A DNA stretch of 25,802 bases from a virus. Shown here one piece after another: positions 8,731 through 24,940 of the stretch (position 1 is its first letter; every line of letters begins with the position of its first letter). The notes under the pieces were generated by a model. It saw nothing but the letters and a program-made list of their open reading frames with translations. It made no database searches and was not told the origin of the DNA. Location: the IMG/VR virus record IMGVR_UViG_3300032157_000043, positions 1 through 25,802 of that record; one strand, given 5' to 3'. The position numbers were made by a program, and so were the translations under genes.

Positions 8731-9141
8731 CTATGCCTCCTTCCAGCGCCAGAATTGCAGGTGCTGGCCGATGCTGCGGCGCGTGGCGCGCAGGCTGGGC
8801 GCCACCACGCCGGAGCCGGTGACGCACTGCAGGATGCGCCCGCCGTCTATCTCAAGATAGACGCCGACATGGCTGGGCTCATCCGGCGCGGTCATGGTGA
8901 CCACGCAGTCGCCCTCGGCAGGCTTTTCCACCAGCTGCCAGCGCGCATACTCGGCATGGCCATCAAACGCGGCGAGGATCTCCGCCTTGCAGGTGGCGTC
9001 CACCACCACCAGCGGCAGCTCGCGCCCGAAGTGCTCGCGCTGCACCCAGCGCACCAGCCCCCAGCAGTCGAAATCATGCGGCCCCTGTCCGCCGCTCACC
9101 CAGGGACGGCCGAGATATTGCATCGCCCAGTGTGCCGTCAT
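8731..9141 (-). CDS. NlpC/P60 tail protein, λ gpK-like
   Basis: 136 residues. The catalytic Cys is in HDFDCWGLVRW (C26) and the His in EPSHVGVYLE (H91), the standard NlpC/P60 pair; the third polar residue lies in the following beta hairpin. Such proteins sit at the tail tip in siphophages and cleave peptidoglycan cross-links during DNA entry, or process tail proteins. It lies between the DUF1833 protein (4-bp overlap) and the J-like protein, exactly the K slot. It lacks the extra N-terminal JAMM domain of λ K. Confidence 0.88.
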   Translation of the reverse strand: MTAHWAMQYLGRPWVSGGQGPHDFDCWGLVRWVQREHFGRELPLVVVDATCKAEILAAFDGHAEYARWQLVEKPAEGDCVVTMTAPDEPSHVGVYLEIDGGRILQCVTGSGVVAPSLRATRRSIGQHLQFWRWKEA

Positions 9142-11876
9142 CTCATCAGCCCCGGGAACCTGGTGGTATTGTAGAGCTGCGCCGGATAGGGGCGGTTGGC
9201 GGTGTTGCCGTAGCTGGCGCGCGCAGTGACGCGGAAGTCGTCGGCCTCGGCCGAGGTCAGCGTCAGCGTCAGCGGCGGGTTCATCTGCGGCGCGCTGAGG
9301 TCGGTGTTGAGGTATGGCCGGTAAGTCACCTCCACCGGATATGGCGACAGCGCGGCCAGCGCCAGGCTGTCCTCGATCTCGCGCGTGACGTTGTCCAGCG
9401 ATATGCTGATCTCCGGCGTGCTCGACGCCTCGATATTCGGCAGGCTGAGCTCAAAGGCAAAGGCGATGAAGGTCACGTATTCGCCCGGGTTCTGCGGCGC
9501 GTCCAGCTCAAGGCGCGCATCGAGGTTGGCATGGTCCAGCACCACGCGGATGGCAGTCGCCTGCCCGAAGTCATCGACGAAATTCGGGTGTCGGAACTCC
9601 AGCGTGTGCAGGATGATGACCCCTGCCGGTGCGCTGGCGTAGGCCTCGCGTATCGCCTGGCTGAGGCGCGGCGGCAGCTCGATAAGGGCAGCCAGCGTGC
9701 CGATGGCGGCGCTGGCACTGACGCCGCTGAGCGCTTTGGCAAGGCCGGGCACGACGATGCCCACGTCCGCACTGGCGGCGTTGCCGCTGAGCGCGATGCC
9801 AAGGGTGTTGCCAACTGTGCCGACTGCCGCAGTGGCGGCCACGCCGGTGAGAGCGACAGTAGTGTCACCGACCACAGTGACTGTGCCCACGGCGCCGGTG
9901 GCGGCGTTGCCCGTCAGCGCGACGGCAAGGGTGTTGCTGACTGTTCCCACGGCTGCGGTGGCGGCGTTGCCCGTCAGCGCGACGGCAAGGGTGTTGCTGA
10001 CTGTTCCCACGGCTGCGGTGGCGGCGTTGCCCGTCAGCGCCTTGTCCATGGCAGGCACTGCCGTGCCAACAGCGGCAGTGGCGGCGTTGCCTGTCAATGC
10101 CTTGTCACGACTGCTGCCCAGCGTGCCCACGGCGCCGGTGGCAGCGTTGCCGCTGAGTGCGATGGCGACATCGCCGCCGAGTGTGCCGACCGTGCCCACG
10201 GCGCCGGTGGCGGCGTTGCCTGTCAGTGCCTTGTCCAGCGCGGGGGCAAGCGTGCCGGGTGCACCGGTGGCAGCGTTGCCGGTGAGGGCTTTGTCCAGCG
10301 CGGGTGTGGTAGTGCCCACGGCTGCTGTTGCAGCGTTGCCGGTGAGTGCCTTGTCACGGCTGCTGCCCAGCGTGCCCACGGCGCCGGTGGCGGCGGTGCC
10401 TGTGATGGCGACGGAGGTGCCGCCGGGCGTGGCGGCAAAAGTAATAGCAAAAGTAGTGCAGGCGTCGCCTGTTACGGTGTTCTGTGTTTTATCTACCGCA
10501 CCTGTAGCGCCAGCAGAGGTCTGTAATTTATATTCATAGGCCGCGCTTTGGTCAGAACCCGATGTATTTCTATATTGCGCGGTTCCTGCTACCTGCCAGC
10601 CTGTATCTCCCGAAGCATTCCACGAGTTATCGTCGGCGGTGAACCATCCGACTAGCGTTACCGTAGGGTCGGTTCCGGTGGTCGTCTGTCCGGGGTTGGC
10701 ATAGGGGCTGCTCGCATCTTCGGTTTCAGCTAATGCTTGATTAACTTCCCACGTGTAATCTGTAGATGGTGGTCTGAAAACGTGCATCTGCACAGAATTG
10801 CAGGTGGCCGCGCTGAAATCCACCGAGGGGTCGGCAGACCAGGTGCCGTTGAAGGTGCACCAGAAAAGCCTATCGGTCTGGTTGGTTATTCCGATTGCCG
10901 CTTCACTTGTCCAAGTCTGTCCACCAGCTTGACTTATGGCTAGGGTGGCGCCAGTGGCTCTTTGCTGTCCTATCATGCAGACCAAATCACCTGCAAGCAT
11001 GCCGGAGGGTGGGGTTACCGCTGTTGGGTCTGCGGTTCCTGTCGCTGCCGCCCCGTCTGCTGGGGTAGAGGCCGAGCCGTAAAGGTAAACCGGCATCATG
11101 TCGTACTCATAGACGGTGGCGCTAGTAGTTCCCGACACATACATTTTGCTGCCGTCAGCATTGAAGGCGAGACCGAATGGTTCGTCGTCCTGCCCTGACA
11201 CCAGCTTGCTGATGCCGTTATAAGTGGCAGAGCTGACCAGCCAAGCAGTGCTGAGGTCGTATTCGTAGACGCCATCGCCGCCGCGACCAACCATATACAT
11301 CTTGCTGCCGTCAGAGTTAAAGGCAAGGCCGCACGGAATATTAGTCTGCCCTGAAACCAGCTTGCTTACACTGTTATAAGTAGCGCTAGATACCAGCCAA
11401 GCAGTGCTGAGGTCATACTCGTAAATAGTGTCGTTAGTGTTTCCCGACACATACATTTTGCTGCCGTCAGACTTGAAGGTGACGGCGGCTGGACTTGAAT
11501 CTTGCCCTGAAACCAGCTTGCTGACGCTATTATAAGTGGCAGAGCTGACCAGCCAAGCAGTGCTGAGGTCGTACTCATAGATAGTAGCGCCTCCTCCTCC
11601 TCCTGTCACATACATTTTGCTGCCGTCAGACTTGAAGGCGAGCCCGAATGGACTTGTAGTCTGCCCTGAAACCAGCTTGCTTACACTGTTATAAGTAGCG
11701 CTAGATACCAGCCAAGCAGTGCTGAGGTCATACTCGTAAATAGTGTCGTTAGTAGTTCCCGACACATACATTTTGCTGCCGTCAGACTTGAAGGCGAGCC
11801 CGAATGGACTTGAATCTTGCCCTGACACCAGCTTGCTGATGCCGTTATAAGTTGCCCCCGCTACAGGCAGTGTCAT
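9138..11876 (-). CDS. Repeat-rich minor tail protein with C-terminal DUF1833
   Basis: 912 residues, several times longer than ordinary DUF1833 proteins (roughly 150-200 residues as I recall). Four parts are visible. Residues 8-268 are five near-identical 52-53-residue repeats with FGLAFKSDGSKMYVSG and TIYEYDLSTAWLVSS, a beta-propeller-like blade pattern. Residues 270-480 form a beta-rich domain (TPPSGMLAGDLVCMIG, TFNGTWSADPSVDFS) like carbohydrate-binding phage fibre domains. Residues 489-728 are twelve roughly 20-residue repeats with core ALTGNAATGAVGT. Residues 729-912 are DUF1833 (LSQAIREAYASAP, then LEFRHPNF). DUF1833 genes normally sit just before the NlpC gene, as here, so the C-terminus probably anchors the protein in the tail tip while the added domains project out. 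The receptor role is inferred. Confidence 0.8.
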   Translation of the reverse strand: MTLPVAGATYNGISKLVSGQDSSPFGLAFKSDGSKMYVSGTTNDTIYEYDLSTAWLVSSATYNSVSKLVSGQTTSPFGLAFKSDGSKMYVTGGGGGATIYEYDLSTAWLVSSATYNSVSKLVSGQDSSPAAVTFKSDGSKMYVSGNTNDTIYEYDLSTAWLVSSATYNSVSKLVSGQTNIPCGLAFNSDGSKMYMVGRGGDGVYEYDLSTAWLVSSATYNGISKLVSGQDDEPFGLAFNADGSKMYVSGTTSATVYEYDMMPVYLYGSASTPADGAAATGTADPTAVTPPSGMLAGDLVCMIGQQRATGATLAISQAGGQTWTSEAAIGITNQTDRLFWCTFNGTWSADPSVDFSAATCNSVQMHVFRPPSTDYTWEVNQALAETEDASSPYANPGQTTTGTDPTVTLVGWFTADDNSWNASGDTGWQVAGTAQYRNTSGSDQSAAYEYKLQTSAGATGAVDKTQNTVTGDACTTFAITFAATPGGTSVAITGTAATGAVGTLGSSRDKALTGNAATAAVGTTTPALDKALTGNAATGAPGTLAPALDKALTGNAATGAVGTVGTLGGDVAIALSGNAATGAVGTLGSSRDKALTGNAATAAVGTAVPAMDKALTGNAATAAVGTVSNTLAVALTGNAATAAVGTVSNTLAVALTGNAATGAVGTVTVVGDTTVALTGVAATAAVGTVGNTLGIALSGNAASADVGIVVPGLAKALSGVSASAAIGTLAALIELPPRLSQAIREAYASAPAGVIILHTLEFRHPNFVDDFGQATAIRVVLDHANLDARLELDAPQNPGEYVTFIAFAFELSLPNIEASSTPEISISLDNVTREIEDSLALAALSPYPVEVTYRPYLNTDLSAPQMNPPLTLTLTSAEADDFRVTARASYGNTANRPYPAQLYNTTRFPGLMR
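9681..10411 (-). repeat. Array of twelve ~60-bp tandem repeats inside the DUF1833 gene
   Basis: Each unit encodes about 20 residues built on ALTGNAATGAVGT with a variable 6-8-residue end (LGSSRDK, TTPALDK, VSNTLAV and others). Two adjacent units, 9901-9960 and 9961-10020, are identical over all 60 bp, and the identity continues about 20 bp into the next unit. This pattern points to recent slippage or unequal recombination. The frame is kept throughout. Confidence 0.93.
11073..11855 (-). repeat. Five ~156-bp tandem repeats (propeller-like blades)
   Basis: Units of 52, 53, 52, 52 and 52 codons starting at ATYN and ending at LVSS, with the last one diverging at its end. DNA identity between blades is high (for example the stretch coding for STAWLVSSATYN recurs four times with few changes). 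Diversity concentrates in the loop after MYV (SGTTND, TGGGGGA, SGNTND, VGRGGD, SGTTSA). Confidence 0.9.
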
Positions 11877-20176: not shown

Positions 20177-20659
20177 TTATCCTTTCCTGTTCAGAATCTT
20201 GACCTGGCCAGAAGCATTCGCTTTTTCAAAGGCCATATAAGATTCAAAGTTAGTGAATTCCGAGCGGATGTTGGCATCCGTCTCCCAGATCGCCTTGGCG
20301 CGCTCTTCGATTGGCAGCGCTGCTGTCTCTGCGGCTTTGGCTGCTGCTTCTGCCTCGGCATCAGGCGCGGCAGCAAATGCAGCGGCACCTGGTGCAGCAC
20401 CAGTGATAATGCCGAGCGCGGCGCTGCCTGCCTTTTTATCGGCAGCGATCACCTGCACGGCCGCTTCCGGCCCTGTGGTCTTGCCGTCGTATTTAAGGGT
20501 GTTAATCAGGACTTCGTGGCCGGGAACTGCCTGTGCCTCTACGTCCTTGATGCGTTGACTTTCTGCGACTGCTCCGGCGGCGAAGCCGGCAACGCGGCCT
20601 TCCTCTACCAGGGCAGCGCACAGGTCTGGGTGCGCGGTGCGCAATTCGTCCAGATTCAT
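20177..20659 (-). CDS. Nested head scaffold protein (λ Nu3-like), in frame inside the protease gene
   Basis: 160 residues from the ATG at 20659 (residue 328 of the protease). A perfect AAAGGAG lies 8 bases upstream inside the coding sequence. The product starts MNLDELRTAHPDLCAALVEE, continues with a helical GRVAGFAAGAVAESQRIKDV, a Pro/Gly hinge, then long Ala-rich stretches and the conserved end FESYMAFEKANASGQVKIL. Nested scaffolds sharing the protease C-terminus are known in λ (C/Nu3) and Mu (I/Z). Ribosome binding site strength and domain boundary support it here; the shared C-terminus would also target the protease to the prohead. Confidence 0.8.
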   Translation of the reverse strand: MNLDELRTAHPDLCAALVEEGRVAGFAAGAVAESQRIKDVEAQAVPGHEVLINTLKYDGKTTGPEAAVQVIAADKKAGSAALGIITGAAPGAAAFAAAPDAEAEAAAKAAETAALPIEERAKAIWETDANIRSEFTNFESYMAFEKANASGQVKILNRKG

Positions 20660-21640
20660 GGCTGTTGCTCCTTTGGTTGAAATGGGGTTTGCTGTCTGGA
20701 TCTGCTGGCCGGACAGCCCGGCGCTGACTTCTTCGCGAGTTGCGCTCGCTGGCATGCTGTGTATGTGTGCCGTCCGTCTTGCGGCCAGCTCGGCAATAAG
20801 ATTGTCGGTGGTGGACACCCTGTCAGCCAGACCGACGGTGACCGCTTTTTGCCCGCGATAGACATCCGCCTGGGTGTTCCTGAGCGCTTCTGCGGAAATG
20901 CGGCGGTTCAGCGCCACCGTCTCGATAAACATTTCATAGAGGCCGTCCACTTCCTCCTGGAAGTCGGCGCGTACCGATTCCGGTAGCGGGTTGAACGGGT
21001 TGCCGTCGACCTTGTGCGAGCCGGCATAGATCTGGGTGACATTGACGCCTTCCAGCGCCAGCGCGCGCGACATGTCCATGTGGCGCATCACCACGCCGAT
21101 AGAGCCTGCGTAACCGGTGCGGGAGACTACGAATTCATCGGCGGCGCTGCCGGCGAGGTAGGCGGCGGAGCAGGCAAAGCAATCGGCGATGGAGACCATA
21201 GGCTTCTTGCCGAGCATCTCGCGCATGCGGTCCGCATGCTCGAATGCGCCCGAGGATTCACCACCTGGACTGTCATATACCCGCAGGATGGCGTGCACGT
21301 CGGGGTTATCCATGGCGTGCTCGACATCCGTGGTGATGTCGTTATAGCCCAGCAGCATGCTTGACATGGTCTCCATGCGAGAGCGGTGCACGGTAACGCC
21401 GCTGATATTGATCACCGCCACGCCGTCCACAATCTTGTAGCCGCGCTCCTGGTTGGCAACGCCTTTTTTCGTGGAGAACAATTCCGCAGGGAGGGATGAT
21501 GCCTCGGACTGGATATGCAGCTGCTCGCCAGCCACATCGAGCAGCCTCGGGCCGATACCGGCGATAATCGCATCCAGCTTCTGCGGATGGATCAGCAGCG
21601 GCGTATTGAATATCCTGGCAGCTAGGTGGGGATAGCGCAT
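20177..21640 (-). CDS. S49-family capsid maturation protease with C-terminal scaffold (λ gpC-like)
   Basis: 487 residues. The protease part spans about 70-300: VINISGV around 77-82, YDSPGGESSGAFEHA around 122-136, catalytic Ser158 in DCFACSAAYLAGSA and general-base Lys210 in YAGSHKVDGNPF. The Ser-Lys gap of 52 equals that given for λ gpC (Ser166/Lys218). The C-terminal part after 328 is Ala-rich and helical, as in scaffolds, and is also made alone from a nested start. The protease trims scaffold and head proteins in the prohead. The start matches family N-termini (MRYPHLAARIFNTPLLIHPQ). No Shine-Dalgarno is seen before it; instead the start lies in a structured leader (21641-21751). Confidence 0.9.
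   Translation of the reverse strand: MRYPHLAARIFNTPLLIHPQKLDAIIAGIGPRLLDVAGEQLHIQSEASSLPAELFSTKKGVANQERGYKIVDGVAVINISGVTVHRSRMETMSSMLLGYNDITTDVEHAMDNPDVHAILRVYDSPGGESSGAFEHADRMREMLGKKPMVSIADCFACSAAYLAGSAADEFVVSRTGYAGSIGVVMRHMDMSRALALEGVNVTQIYAGSHKVDGNPFNPLPESVRADFQEEVDGLYEMFIETVALNRRISAEALRNTQADVYRGQKAVTVGLADRVSTTDNLIAELAARRTAHIHSMPASATREEVSAGLSGQQIQTANPISTKGATAMNLDELRTAHPDLCAALVEEGRVAGFAAGAVAESQRIKDVEAQAVPGHEVLINTLKYDGKTTGPEAAVQVIAADKKAGSAALGIITGAAPGAAAFAAAPDAEAEAAAKAAETAALPIEERAKAIWETDANIRSEFTNFESYMAFEKANASGQVKILNRKG
20668..20674 (-). promoter_or_regulatory. Internal ribosome binding site for the nested scaffold
   Basis: AAAGGAG, fully complementary to the 16S rRNA tail core, 8 bases before an in-frame ATG within the protease gene. 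It is much stronger than anything before the protease ATG itself, which fits a need for excess scaffold over protease. Confidence 0.8.
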
Positions 21641-21751
21641 GGTGCGAACATTACTGAGTTGTTCCGTCTCATTTCAGGGGGAAATGAGACGTGTCGCACC
21701 AATCTTGCAAATTTATTTGCTTTAGATTGGTGGTGATGCCCTTTACGGGCA
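21641..21751 (-). promoter_or_regulatory. Structured leader of the protease gene with two competing folds
   Basis: In the mRNA, 5' to 3': a UGCCC/GGGCA hairpin (21751-21737); a long hairpin CACCAAUCU/AGAUUGGUG (21732-21697) with inner GCAAAU/AUUUGC; and the 25-bp palindrome hairpin (21690-21666). In addition GGUGCGA (21700-21694) can pair with UCGCACC (21647-21641), which touches the start codon. This pairing uses bases of the second hairpin, so the two folds exclude each other. No Shine-Dalgarno is visible. Translational control is inferred. Confidence 0.45.
21666..21690. repeat. 25-bp palindrome, copy 1 (before the protease gene)
   Basis: Arms GTCTCATTTC and GAAATGAGAC around AGGGG. On the minus strand it is followed by 9 variable bases and then CAGTAATGT. 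An identical palindrome with the same spacing and box occurs at 23630-23654. Confidence 0.9.
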
Positions 21752-21763
21752 CGATGTGGGGCT

Positions 21764-23356
21764 CTAATCCTCGACACGGCTGGCCGCATCAGGGCTTGGG
21801 TTTTGTGGCGGCTGTTCGCCCTTGGGTGCAGCCGTGAGTCCATCCTCGTCCCGCATCTTCTTTTCGCGCACCAGCTGCGGATGCTTGGTCTGGTAGTCAA
21901 CGCCGTCATGCAGGATGCTCTCGGCATCGCGCGTGGATATTCCGAGCGCAACGCGCTTCTCTGCCGCATCCACTTCCTTGACCGGGTCGATCGAGCCGGG
22001 GCCGTCACCGATCCATGTTGCGCCGCACCATGCGGCACGCACTGCCGGATCCTGGAAGAACCCCGGAGCATTGATGCGCTGCCGCGCCACCGCCTCTGCC
22101 AGCCACAGTTCATAGACCGGCTGGCACAGGTCGGTTGACATCCAGTCGCGGGCGATGCGGAAGGTGCGCCAGGCAGAGAGCAGCGCAGCCCTGGCAGCGG
22201 AATAGCTGGAGGTGTAGTGCATGATCAGCACTTCGTAGGGAATGCCCAGTGCCATGCCGATCTGGCGGATGATGGCCTGCACGAAGGGGTCGAACTCGGA
22301 ATTGGGGCGGCCCGGGTTGGCGGTGCTGATGTCCTCGCCCGGCAACAGGTTGACGGCCTTGCCACCGTTGTCCATGTTACCTTCCCATTTACTGGCGGAT
22401 GACGTGATTTCCCTTTTTGATGTCTCGTCGAACAGTTCCTGGAATGCGTTATGGTCCATCTTCACAAAGATCGAGAACATGCCGGCGGTCACGGCCGCCT
22501 GCAGCTCGGCATCGGTATAGCGGCCAAGCTGCTTCAGCGGCTCGATGACGGGCGCAAAATCCGGCACGCCGCGCACCTGACTGGGCCGTAGCGGCTTGAA
22601 CAGGTGCAGCACGTTGCGGCGGCCCTTGGCGCCATAGAACGGGTAGGCTGACCACTGCATGCTGCGGGAGCGCAGGTCACCCGGGTGCTTGTTGGAAATA
22701 TGGCACTTTATGGGCGCGCCGCTCTCGTCCACCTCGATGCCGTCGATGATCCTGTCGGTGTTCTGCGCGCGGTTCGGGTTGCTGACACGGTCTGCCTCTA
22801 TGACCTGCAGGCAGAGCGAATAGGCGTTGCCCCTGTCCTTGTTCGGCGTCAGCACGAATACGTCGCCCGACTCCATGCGGGCGCGGAATGCCAGCGCCTG
22901 CAGCTGGTAAAAATTCATGCGGCGGCCAATATCTACATCCTTGCTGTTGGCAAACAGCGCCCACTCGCGCTTGACATTCGCCACCCAGGCGCTGCTCTGC
23001 TCCTCGGTCATGCCGAGATATTCATAATTCGGGGATGGCGCGGGGGTCAGCCCGGTGCCGATGACGTGCGTGGTGGCCAGCTCCACCGCGCCGGTGGCGA
23101 TCGGGGTATTGCGCACCAGGTCGCGGCTGCGCTCGCGCAGGTTCGGTAAATCAGGGCTGATATCCGCTTCGGCGGATCCTGCCGATGTCTGCCAGTTGGA
23201 AAGTGCCGTGCGGCGTTTGCTTGCCCCGGAATACCCGCCGCCGGAGCCGGAGAGTGCCAGCATCACGCGTGCTTTGCGGCGCTGGAAGGCAATGCGCGGC
23301 GCCACGAATTCCAGCGCCTTGTCGATGAAGTTTTCCTTGATGAGGGGCTTGGCCAT
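21764..23356 (-). CDS. Portal protein, λ gpB family
   Basis: 530 residues from the ATG at 23356, two bases after the stop of the upstream gene; a GTG at 23374 in the same frame is possible. Signature parts are the start MAKPLIKENFIDKALEFVAP, then LRERSRDLVRNTPIATGAVE, FALQ-type core positions such as MNFYQLQALAFRARMESGDV, HLFKPLRPSQVRGVPDFAPV and IGMALGIPYEVLIMHYTSSY. The C-terminus is charged and disordered. The dodecameric portal is the DNA entry channel and docks the terminase. Place and length fit the Phage_portal_2 family. Confidence 0.93.
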   Translation of the reverse strand: MAKPLIKENFIDKALEFVAPRIAFQRRKARVMLALSGSGGGYSGASKRRTALSNWQTSAGSAEADISPDLPNLRERSRDLVRNTPIATGAVELATTHVIGTGLTPAPSPNYEYLGMTEEQSSAWVANVKREWALFANSKDVDIGRRMNFYQLQALAFRARMESGDVFVLTPNKDRGNAYSLCLQVIEADRVSNPNRAQNTDRIIDGIEVDESGAPIKCHISNKHPGDLRSRSMQWSAYPFYGAKGRRNVLHLFKPLRPSQVRGVPDFAPVIEPLKQLGRYTDAELQAAVTAGMFSIFVKMDHNAFQELFDETSKREITSSASKWEGNMDNGGKAVNLLPGEDISTANPGRPNSEFDPFVQAIIRQIGMALGIPYEVLIMHYTSSYSAARAALLSAWRTFRIARDWMSTDLCQPVYELWLAEAVARQRINAPGFFQDPAVRAAWCGATWIGDGPGSIDPVKEVDAAEKRVALGISTRDAESILHDGVDYQTKHPQLVREKKMRDEDGLTAAPKGEQPPQNPSPDAASRVED

Positions 23357-23358
23357 GC

Positions 23359-23586
23359 TCAGCCGCCCGGACACATATTGATGACGCGGCCCCGCCCGGA
23401 AGCCTGCCCGCCCAGAGCCTGCACGCGCTGGTTCCAGGTGTCGATGCCCTTCTGGATGAACTCAAGGTCTGCGCGGCGCAGTGAGCGGCCGGCGATTTCG
23501 TAGGATTGCCCGGATAAAACGGCTATTTCAGCGGCGAGGTATGCTTCTAGTTGTGTCTCAGCCTGCGCGAGTGTAATGCCTGCCAT
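23359..23586 (-). CDS. DUF6148 protein in the gpW position
   Basis: 75 residues: MAGITLAQAETQLEAYLAAE, then GQSYEIAGRSLRRADLEFIQ and NQRVQALGGQ, ending with MCPGG. The AGRSLRRADL motif and helix-hairpin-helix build match DUF6148 (similar in layout to λ gpW), a small head protein encoded between terminase and portal. A GGAG ribosome binding site lies 7 bases before the ATG. It is preceded by the second copy of the 25-bp palindrome. gpW-like proteins stabilise packaged DNA and help form the connector; the role here is by analogy. Confidence 0.85.
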   Translation of the reverse strand: MAGITLAQAETQLEAYLAAEIAVLSGQSYEIAGRSLRRADLEFIQKGIDTWNQRVQALGGQASGRGRVINMCPGG

Positions 23587-23629
23587 TCGGAATCTCCGAG
23601 TTGATGGCGTGACATTACTGGTTTGGGTT

Positions 23630-23654
23630 GTCTCATTTCAGGGGGAAATGAGAC
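23630..23654. repeat. 25-bp palindrome, copy 2 (before the DUF6148/portal genes)
   Basis: Identical to 21666-21690. On the minus strand it is followed by 9 different bases and CAGTAATGT, 20-odd bases before a normal GGAG ribosome binding site. If TAATGT acts as a -10 box the palindrome spans about -25 to -49, the place of an activator site. There is no U-run, so it is not a terminator. Confidence 0.9.
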
Positions 23655-23953: not shown

Positions 23954-23974
23954 TTTCTCTCCTATTTTTTCAAA
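23948..23974 (-). repeat. Gene-junction direct repeat, copy 1
   Basis: About 27 bp covering the upstream gene's Lys-Lys stop, TAGGAGAGAAA and ATGGA of the next gene. It matches 24650-24677 with about two mismatches and one indel. The two copies bracket the alpha-CTD-like and AlpA-like genes. Confidence 0.7.
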
Positions 23975-24444
23975 ATTCTTTTAGGCTCTGTCCAGGTCAG
24001 CCAAGCTCCTATTTCACTTAGAGTGCCTGCACCTAAGTTGTATATCTCTGCCAACTTGCCAGAGTTATAAGCTACCAACAGTTCGTCTTTATTACTTATA
24101 TTGGCTTGGCTTAGGCAACTGATTGCTCTGTTCGAAAGCCCCCAGAATGGTAAATCTGGAAATTTCTCTGCCCTAAGTGCGCAATAGACAAGGCGGATAG
24201 CCTTGAATTTCGCTATTCCATACTTTTTAGATAACTCAATGTATGTTGCCCCTGCGCGGTGCGCAGCAAGTATTTCAGCAAGCGCATGTTTGCCCCATAT
24301 TTTGTCTTTTAACATTGGGTCAATGGGGAATTTTTTAATGCACGCAGCCGCCACTCTCTCTGTTTTGTGGCGGTGCCAAGGATAATTGCAAGTCCAGTAA
24401 CACACTTGCACTTGCTTGCATTTAAGTTCTGGGAAATAAGCCAT
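23962..24444 (-). CDS. Phage protein with RNA polymerase alpha-CTD-like domain
   Basis: 160 residues in three parts. Residues 1-38 are Cys/His-rich (C9, C15, C19, H24, H26, C35), a possible zinc site. Residues 52-92 look like a helix-turn-helix (ALAEILAAHRAGATYIELSK, then KYGIAKFKAIRLV). Residues 100-150 resemble the alpha-CTD: LSNRAISCLSQANISNKDEL, then IYNLGAGTLSEIGAWL. Aligned with E. coli alpha, Arg265, Gly296 and Glu302 are kept (R106, G138, E144); Asn268 and Lys298 are changed (S109, G140). Alpha-CTD binds UP elements and activators. A phage DNA-binding factor that joins or mimics polymerase is a reasonable guess. AT-rich; weak ribosome binding site (AGAG); not recognised as a known named protein. 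Confidence 0.7.
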   Translation of the reverse strand: MAYFPELKCKQVQVCYWTCNYPWHRHKTERVAAACIKKFPIDPMLKDKIWGKHALAEILAAHRAGATYIELSKKYGIAKFKAIRLVYCALRAEKFPDLPFWGLSNRAISCLSQANISNKDELLVAYNSGKLAEIYNLGAGTLSEIGAWLTWTEPKRILKK

Positions 24445-24469: not shown

Positions 24470-24655
24470 TCAGCAAGTTGCTGACTCTTTGATTTTTTTC
24501 TGTATCCATTCTTGCAGCTGGCTTTGTGGCCAGCGAATGCTGGCACCAATGCGGACAGGTGCTGGGAAAGTTTTTTCGCGAACCATGTCATTTATTTGGC
24601 TTCGGCTGAAACCGACTATCTCCTGCACATCCTGCATTTTTAAAAGTTTTTCCAT
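24470..24655 (-). CDS. AlpA-family DNA-binding regulator
   Basis: 61 residues, a normal size for the family. MEKLLKMQDVQEIVGFSRSQ, then INDMVREKTFPAPVRIGASI and RWPQSQLQEWIQ is the full winged-helix AlpA pattern. AlpA proteins activate or assist excision of P4/CP4-57-type elements by acting on integrase expression or on att DNA. The window also contains an integrase of exactly that type, with unexplained repeated sites at its promoter. AGGAG ribosome binding site 6 bases upstream. Its place inside the packaging module, far from int on the linear map, is unusual. Confidence 0.88.
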   Translation of the reverse strand: MEKLLKMQDVQEIVGFSRSQINDMVREKTFPAPVRIGASIRWPQSQLQEWIQKKIKESATC

Positions 24656-24677
24656 TTTTCTCTCCTATTTCTTCAAA
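24650..24677 (-). repeat. Gene-junction direct repeat, copy 2
   Basis: The junction between the Mor-like and AlpA-like genes: codons for Leu-Lys-Lys, the stop TAG merged with AGGAG, and ATGGA. It is nearly identical to 23948-23974. Confidence 0.7.
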
Positions 24678-24940
24678 TACCGATAAAGCGTTGCCCGCGA
24701 TATGCCATGCTGCTTACTGGCTTTCTTGGTGTCCTCACCGGCGATATATTCCTGCACTGCTGCGTCTTTTTCTTGCGGTGAAGCCTTGCGCTTTTTTGCT
24801 ATATACCCGACTTCGCTGCCACCCCAGTCCTGCCGTATCTGGTCCTCCAGCTCAAGCGCCCGGTCGTGATCCATGCCGGGGCAGAACTTTTCCACCAGGC
24901 GGACGAAATAGCTGACGATGTCCTGTTTATCGTCTTTCAT
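24665..24940 (-). CDS. Mor/C-like HTH transcription activator candidate
   Basis: 91 residues; the ATG overlaps the terminase stop (ATGA). The N-terminal helix part DIVSYFVRLVEKFCPGMDHD with ALELEDQIRQDWGGSEVGYI matches the Mor dimerisation region, in which a helix precedes a GG-x-x-x-YI strand. A basic linker follows (AKKRKASPQEKDAAVQEYIA), then a clear helix-turn-helix, TKKASKQHGISRATLYRYLKK. Mu Mor and C bind palindromes next to weak promoters and switch on middle or late genes. A small terminase subunit is an alternative given the place next to the large terminase, but the GG...YI motif favours Mor. Confidence 0.7.
   Translation of the reverse strand: MKDDKQDIVSYFVRLVEKFCPGMDHDRALELEDQIRQDWGGSEVGYIAKKRKASPQEKDAAVQEYIAGEDTKKASKQHGISRATLYRYLKK

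Follow-up and report, generated by a model that had tools for sequence, protein, structure and literature searches.

Identical palindromes ahead of two head genes in an uncultured phage: predicted promoters for a Mor-like activator

Introduction

Why should one phage carry the same 25-bp palindrome ahead of two different head genes? The question is raised by an IMG/VR virus record of 25.8 kb, possibly incomplete and analysed over its whole length (the window in what follows), in which GTCTCATTTC-AGGGG-GAAATGAGAC is present twice, at 21666-21690 and 23630-23654, in identical copies of 25 bp each. At up to three mismatches the window holds no third copy, and 100 shuffles returned 0 matches. On the minus strand, which is the coding strand, each palindrome is followed by nine differing bases and then by CAGTAATGT (21656-21648 and 23620-23612), which has no other exact occurrence in the window. 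A sequence-only reading had pointed out the two palindromes, their equal spacing to TAATGT and their position ahead of two head genes; both copies are present in this arrangement and unique in the window, and the genes could be assigned to a gpW-like adaptor (phrog_118) and an S49 protease (phrog_53). The answer favored here, and held with considerable confidence, is that each palindrome together with TAATGT constitutes a promoter of the sigma70 type that lacks a -35 element and is switched on by the 91-aa Mor-like protein encoded in the same phage. That this protein activates rather than represses is inferred from homology, and its binding, its binding as a dimer, and the start points of transcription are likewise inferences.

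Predicted promoters and genes in the window

Palindrome 1 (23630..23654, minus strand), a predicted Mor-like binding site whose family members precede gpW in the relatives, consists of the half-site GTCTCA (23654-23649), the core CCCCT (23644-23640) and the half-site TGAGAC (23635-23630). The -10 hexamer TAATGT of the corresponding promoter, P1, lies 22 nt past the core (23612..23617, minus strand); if the customary interval from a -10 to the +1 applies, transcription is predicted to start at ~23605, upstream of gpW. The first gene past P1 encodes the gpW-like head-tail adaptor (23359..23586, minus strand; phrog_118, E=8e-21); the portal protein of the lambda family (21764..23374, minus strand; PF05136, E=3e-107) is located between P1 and P2. 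Palindrome 2 (21666..21690, minus strand), the predicted Mor-like binding site of P2, whose family members precede the protease in the relatives, has the same parts (GTCTCA 21690-21685, CCCCT 21680-21676, TGAGAC 21671-21666) and the same TAATGT hexamer 22 nt past the core (21648..21653, minus strand). The first gene past P2 is that of the S49 head-maturation protease (20177..21640, minus strand; phrog_53, E=7e-108; PF01343). The start of P2, inferred at ~21641 (minus strand), falls within about one base of the protease ATG at 21640, so that the P2 mRNA is predicted to be possibly leaderless. A search of Rfam gave no meaningful match.

Two further features of the window may be recorded in passing. 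A longer inverted repeat at ~21697-21735, between the portal stop codon and palindrome 2, reads CACCAATCT..GCAAAT..ATTTGC..AGATTGGTG and has no T-run after it, and a 912-aa protein (9138-11876, minus strand) is built of repeated beta-propeller-like units with many short ALTGNAATGAVGT repeats.

The Mor-like protein

The candidate activator, a helix-turn-helix (HTH) protein of 91 residues (24665..24940, minus strand), contains the recognition motif GISRATLYR (S81 R82 A83) and matches phrog_532 at E=1.8e-4. Taken alone, it reaches 0.0019 with the Pfam Mor family PF08765, below the curated cut-off; its homologues match the same family in 17 of 47 cases (best 4.8e-12) and phrog_532 in 26 of 47. An HMM built from these homologues picks up Mu Mor (9e-5) and Mu C (6e-3), and a profile search of the PDB places Mu Mor (1rr7) first, at 0.0012. 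In the window record the homologue profile, which includes the window protein among its members, has this protein as its single match. The AlphaFold model (pLDDT 86.5) gave near full-length fold matches including Mu C (9l0x; Z 5.4, rmsd 5.1, 89 residues) and Mor (1rr7; Z 4.8, rmsd 7.3), both of them under Z 8 and tied with rows that match the HTH only. Membership of the Mor/C family is thus supported at the level of sequence and unproven by fold, for which a helical dimer domain at the N-terminus and an HTH at the C-terminus would be expected. By tblastn no close homologue was found in 50,697 phage records, nor in 72,556 plasmids queried with one Mor-like member; what these phage and plasmid searches returned were distant Mu-like regulators or HTH fragments.

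Directly past the Mor-like gene lies an AlpA-like excisionase/regulator (24470-24655, minus strand; PF05930, 2e-11). Between the Mor-like gene and P1 a 160-aa protein with an HTH-like middle is encoded (23962-24444, minus strand), the C-terminus of which matches the C-terminal domain of the RNA polymerase alpha subunit (PF03118, 4.8e-6); no homologue of it was found in the loci of the relatives. Mu Mor works via the alpha C-terminal domain, and it is for this reason that the match is of interest.

Architecture of the element in relatives

In viral_contigs an exact pattern scan brought up the palindrome in a single further contig, L003, where it stands upstream of gpW; the record of L003 holds a second copy, with one mismatch, preceding a protease-type gene. 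A slightly looser pattern gave ten matches in genome_contigs, in unrelated taxa, a few of which are expected by chance. Single-sequence searches with the portal and the protease found few relatives, and a DNA search of phage records gave no match. A survey was compiled of 80 IMG/VR loci fetched via a portal alignment, that is, chosen on portal similarity and not on the site. In 68 of the 80 an HMM detected a Mor-like HTH protein, mostly encoded between terminase and gpW, and in the DNA preceding gpW the element is visible by eye. Most have it upstream of gpW and of the S49 protease, and sometimes of lysis genes too; in the hand-entered site alignment the first base of the L058 row is wrong.

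The element opens with a half-site of 6 bp, separated by a few bases from a core whose last letters are CCT; the inverted half-site comes 3-5 nt later, and TAnnnT follows it. An EM motif search recovered it in 53 of 69 gpW-upstream sequences (window included) with a total of 24 bits. Shuffled sets, run with fewer iterations, also yielded 26-35 "sites", with just 12-13 bits, so that 53 sites are weak evidence by themselves and the argument rests instead on information content, on nhmmer, and on tests at the protease side. In 20 full palindromes just one TAnnnT candidate is present; the distance from core to -10 is 22 nt in 19 of these and 21 nt in one, whereas that from arm to -10 ranges from 10 to 13 (sd 0.22 versus 0.80); the search ranges for the core end and the -10 were limited, which bounds both spreads. 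The protease-side sites (n=34) were found from the arm and core columns only, without any -10 information, and TAnnnT stands at +22 in 17 of them and at +23 in 4 (binomial for 21/34 ~2e-32), compared with 4 at all remaining offsets examined. The distance of the right arm floats by 3 bp, the half-site centres are 18-21 bp apart, and the dyad lies at ~-37 relative to the inferred start. A half-site spacing that varies by 3 bp is unusual for a rigid dimer, and this counts against the promoter model favored here. An exception is the gpW site of L003, which lacks the C-rich core and has a 21-nt spacing.

The sequence-only reading had suspected a composite site under selection, with TAATGT as -10 element, no good -35, and a palindrome covering roughly -25 to -49. 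The same two sites do precede the same two genes in the relatives, the spacing from core to -10 is conserved there, and the -35 region offers just 1-4 of 6 consensus matches, with no sigma70 promoter consensus around either site of the window. From the proposed conserved CAGTAATGT box, TAnnnT is kept in the relatives and the leading CAG is not.

The lack of a -35 element also bears on the possibility that the Mor-like protein is a repressor at these sites, keeping the head genes off until its removal. The site overlaps the -35 region, where a bound protein could block polymerase; promoters with so few -35 matches would, however, be weak unaided, and the characterised relatives Mu Mor and C are activators (PMC4390567, PMC4287176), so that repression appears quite unlikely.

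Two departures from the common layout should be mentioned. L093 retains the right half-site TGAGAC alone, with TAAAAT/TACAAT 11-12 nt further on, upstream of gpW as well as of the protease. In L042 and L049 a variant, TTCCCAC-TTTC-N-CCC, precedes a canonical TTGAC -35 upstream of gpW and of the protease. As L049 combines a Mor-like protein with SRS in its helix, a TTCCCA element and a canonical -35, its geometry differs, and the variant may represent a class with the activator seated further upstream.

Covariation of the arms with the recognition helix

Within one phage the gpW and protease copies have the 6-bp arm in common in 26 of 30 cases, and the 18-nt identity between the copies of a phage was equalled in 0 of 10,000 shuffles. 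Between phages the arm varies with the helix: SRA goes with GTCTCA, SRR with GTGNCA, HRA or DRA with GTCGCA/C, and SRS often with GTCCCA. Arginine in the helix against G as base 3 of the arm gives counts of 9/0/0/35 (Fisher 1e-9, the rows not being independent); on the portal tree the arginine and the G each change 7 times, and 5 of 5 independent pairs change in the same direction. One such switch separates the close relatives L055 (SRA, GTCTCA) and L048 (SRR, GTGCCA). For histidine or aspartate against G as base 4 (GTCGC) the counts are 4/1/0/30, with 4 independent pairs in the same and 0 in the opposite direction. It should be borne in mind that the helix residues were selected after inspection of the data, and that the sign tests on independent pairs alone miss 0.05 (0.0625 and 0.125). 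Several loci bear on the code individually. L050, at first apparently without a Mor-like gene, proved, once the code had been noted, to have one in another part of its record, and the SRA of that protein fits the GTCTCA of L050; L049, a later case, pairs its SRS protein with TTCCCA and was counted as fitting; L063 and L073 (PRR) have a GTGCCA/TGGCAC palindrome at the protease. Exceptions are L041 (SRS, GTCGCA), L043 (SRS, GTCTCA) and L090 (SRA, arms inverted). The suggestion that the Mor-like protein serves as activator thus finds support in half-site bases that covary with its recognition helix, although activation and binding remain inferred.

The same covariation weighs on the idea that the palindrome acts as an RNA hairpin, controlling processing, stability or translation within a read-through transcript of the head operon. 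As RNA, the two window copies both give strong folds (z = -5.3 and -5.4). Yet L059 and L082 keep the left arm, the core and the -10 with the hairpin lost (z -0.8 and -0.7), no more than 3 of 6 arm positions pair in 12 of 53 sites, the -10 spacing is fixed relative to the core, and the arm bases track the DNA-recognition helix of a protein. An action as RNA only, which had been named beforehand as an outcome that would refute the promoter, is hence very unlikely, the hairpin being lost in relatives that keep the promoter elements.

Co-occurrence and location of the sites

Matches obtained with nhmmer lie on the coding strand, upstream of gpW and of the S49 protease. When whole records were scanned (n=29), 23 gave a match (two sites in 16, three in 3, one in 4) and 6 gave none. 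In 12 named phages with related portals neither a Mor-like gene nor the site was found, an empty result that is informative, since the model used for the scan does match 23 other records; L095 (36 kb) likewise shows neither. The proposed check, that sites and Mor-like gene should occur together, is met in that the named portal relatives without the gene also lack the sites. Within the relatives themselves the contingency is uninformative (p = 0.27), because nearly all encode Mor, and the named phages replaced it as controls. A Mor-like gene without a clear gpW site occurs in L063, L066, L071, L073, L085, L088 and L089; the other anticipated objection, absence of the element from relatives that keep Mor, consequently applies to a minority only, and some of these retain the protease-side site. 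The notion that Mor-less relatives regain a -35 was largely dropped, since L049 proved to encode Mor and L042, L096 and L097 are fragments.

In L003, L034, L043 and L086 the protease site stays with the protease despite several kb of genes after the portal, and G010 and G011 have two widely spaced sites each. In 11 annotated named relatives without Mor the portal and protease genes overlap. Third sites are present in G004 and G014, with a weaker one in G005; the genes that follow them are holin/endolysin-like, as judged from inspected translations. Binding of the Mor-like protein for a purpose other than transcription, e.g. packaging or replication, is suggested by little more than the nearness of the sites to the terminase gene and is barely tenable for sites that both lie on the coding strand, each just upstream of a gene start with a fixed -10, and that have extra copies preceding lysis genes. 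Taken together, covariation and co-occurrence strongly imply that the Mor-like proteins bind at these sites, an inference drawn from sequence comparison.

Comparison with Mu promoters

The element of Mu Pm, 16 bp long and centred at -43.5, takes the place of the -35 and is bound by a dimer of Mor (PMC4390567, PMC4287176). By placing the primer printed in PMC4390567 on the Mu genome, this element could be identified as AGTAA-AGCCGG-TTAAT. Common to both systems are a Mor-family HTH protein, an inverted pair of half-sites flanking a G/C-rich centre, with a TAnnnT -10 (TATCCT in Mu) downstream, and the absence of a -35 (PMC4390567, PMC4287176). Mu Pm, however, has 5-bp half-sites 11 bp apart, a dyad at -43.5 and a single promoter, in contrast to the 6-bp half-sites 18-21 bp apart, the conserved C-rich core, the dyad at ~-37 and the two or three promoters found here, which moreover belong to a lambda-type head module and differ in half-site sequence. 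Of the hallmarks of Pm, inverted half-sites and a -10 without -35 are met, whereas the 16-bp element, the 11-bp spacing and the -43.5 centre are not. The wider half-site spacing and the dyad at ~-37 point to the same general mechanism as likely, with a different geometry; the present sites, very probably promoters whose dependence on the Mor-like protein is inferred, are classed as a variant of the Mu Pm type and not as members of it. A resemblance also exists to the Mu late promoters (Plys, PI, PP, Pmom) and C, where several lysis and morphogenesis promoters answer to one activator of the Mor/C family (PMC4287176). Mu uses Mor and then C in sequence, for a Mu-type module, whereas the window record, which may be incomplete, yielded a single activator of this kind.

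Proposed mechanism and implications

According to the model, the product of the activator gene, located after the terminase gene, would bind as a dimer and put one HTH on each half-site (GTCTCA / TGAGAC), the half-sites flanking the conserved C-rich core at ~-39 to -35. The bound dimer would recruit host RNA polymerase to the TAnnnT -10 starting 22 nt past the core and so switch on P1, for gpW and portal, and P2, for the protease and the genes beyond it; the lysis genes of some relatives would be served by a third site. A more specific proposal, to which we give slightly less than even chances, is that the half-sites, 18-21 bp apart, can shift independently and still be reached by the two HTH domains, while the spacing to the -10 is dictated by a separate rigid core; the core would then determine the register of activation, and a simple two-residue helix code the specificity. 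If true, movable half-sites combined with a rigid core would amount to an activation geometry unlike that of Mu Mor and C. A literature search found the Mu Pm papers and no description of these sites, most subscription papers being outside its scope.

Dozens of uncultured phages carry the paired sites, very probably promoters, and in each phage the site sequence fits that phage's own activator, the binding of which is inferred. The link drawn here between a residue of the protein and a base of the DNA recurs in several natural replicates, so that specificity becomes directly testable. A probable late-gene switch can thereby be named for a broad group of uncultured phages, in which head and lysis genes of lambda-type modules would stand under the control of a Mu-type activator.
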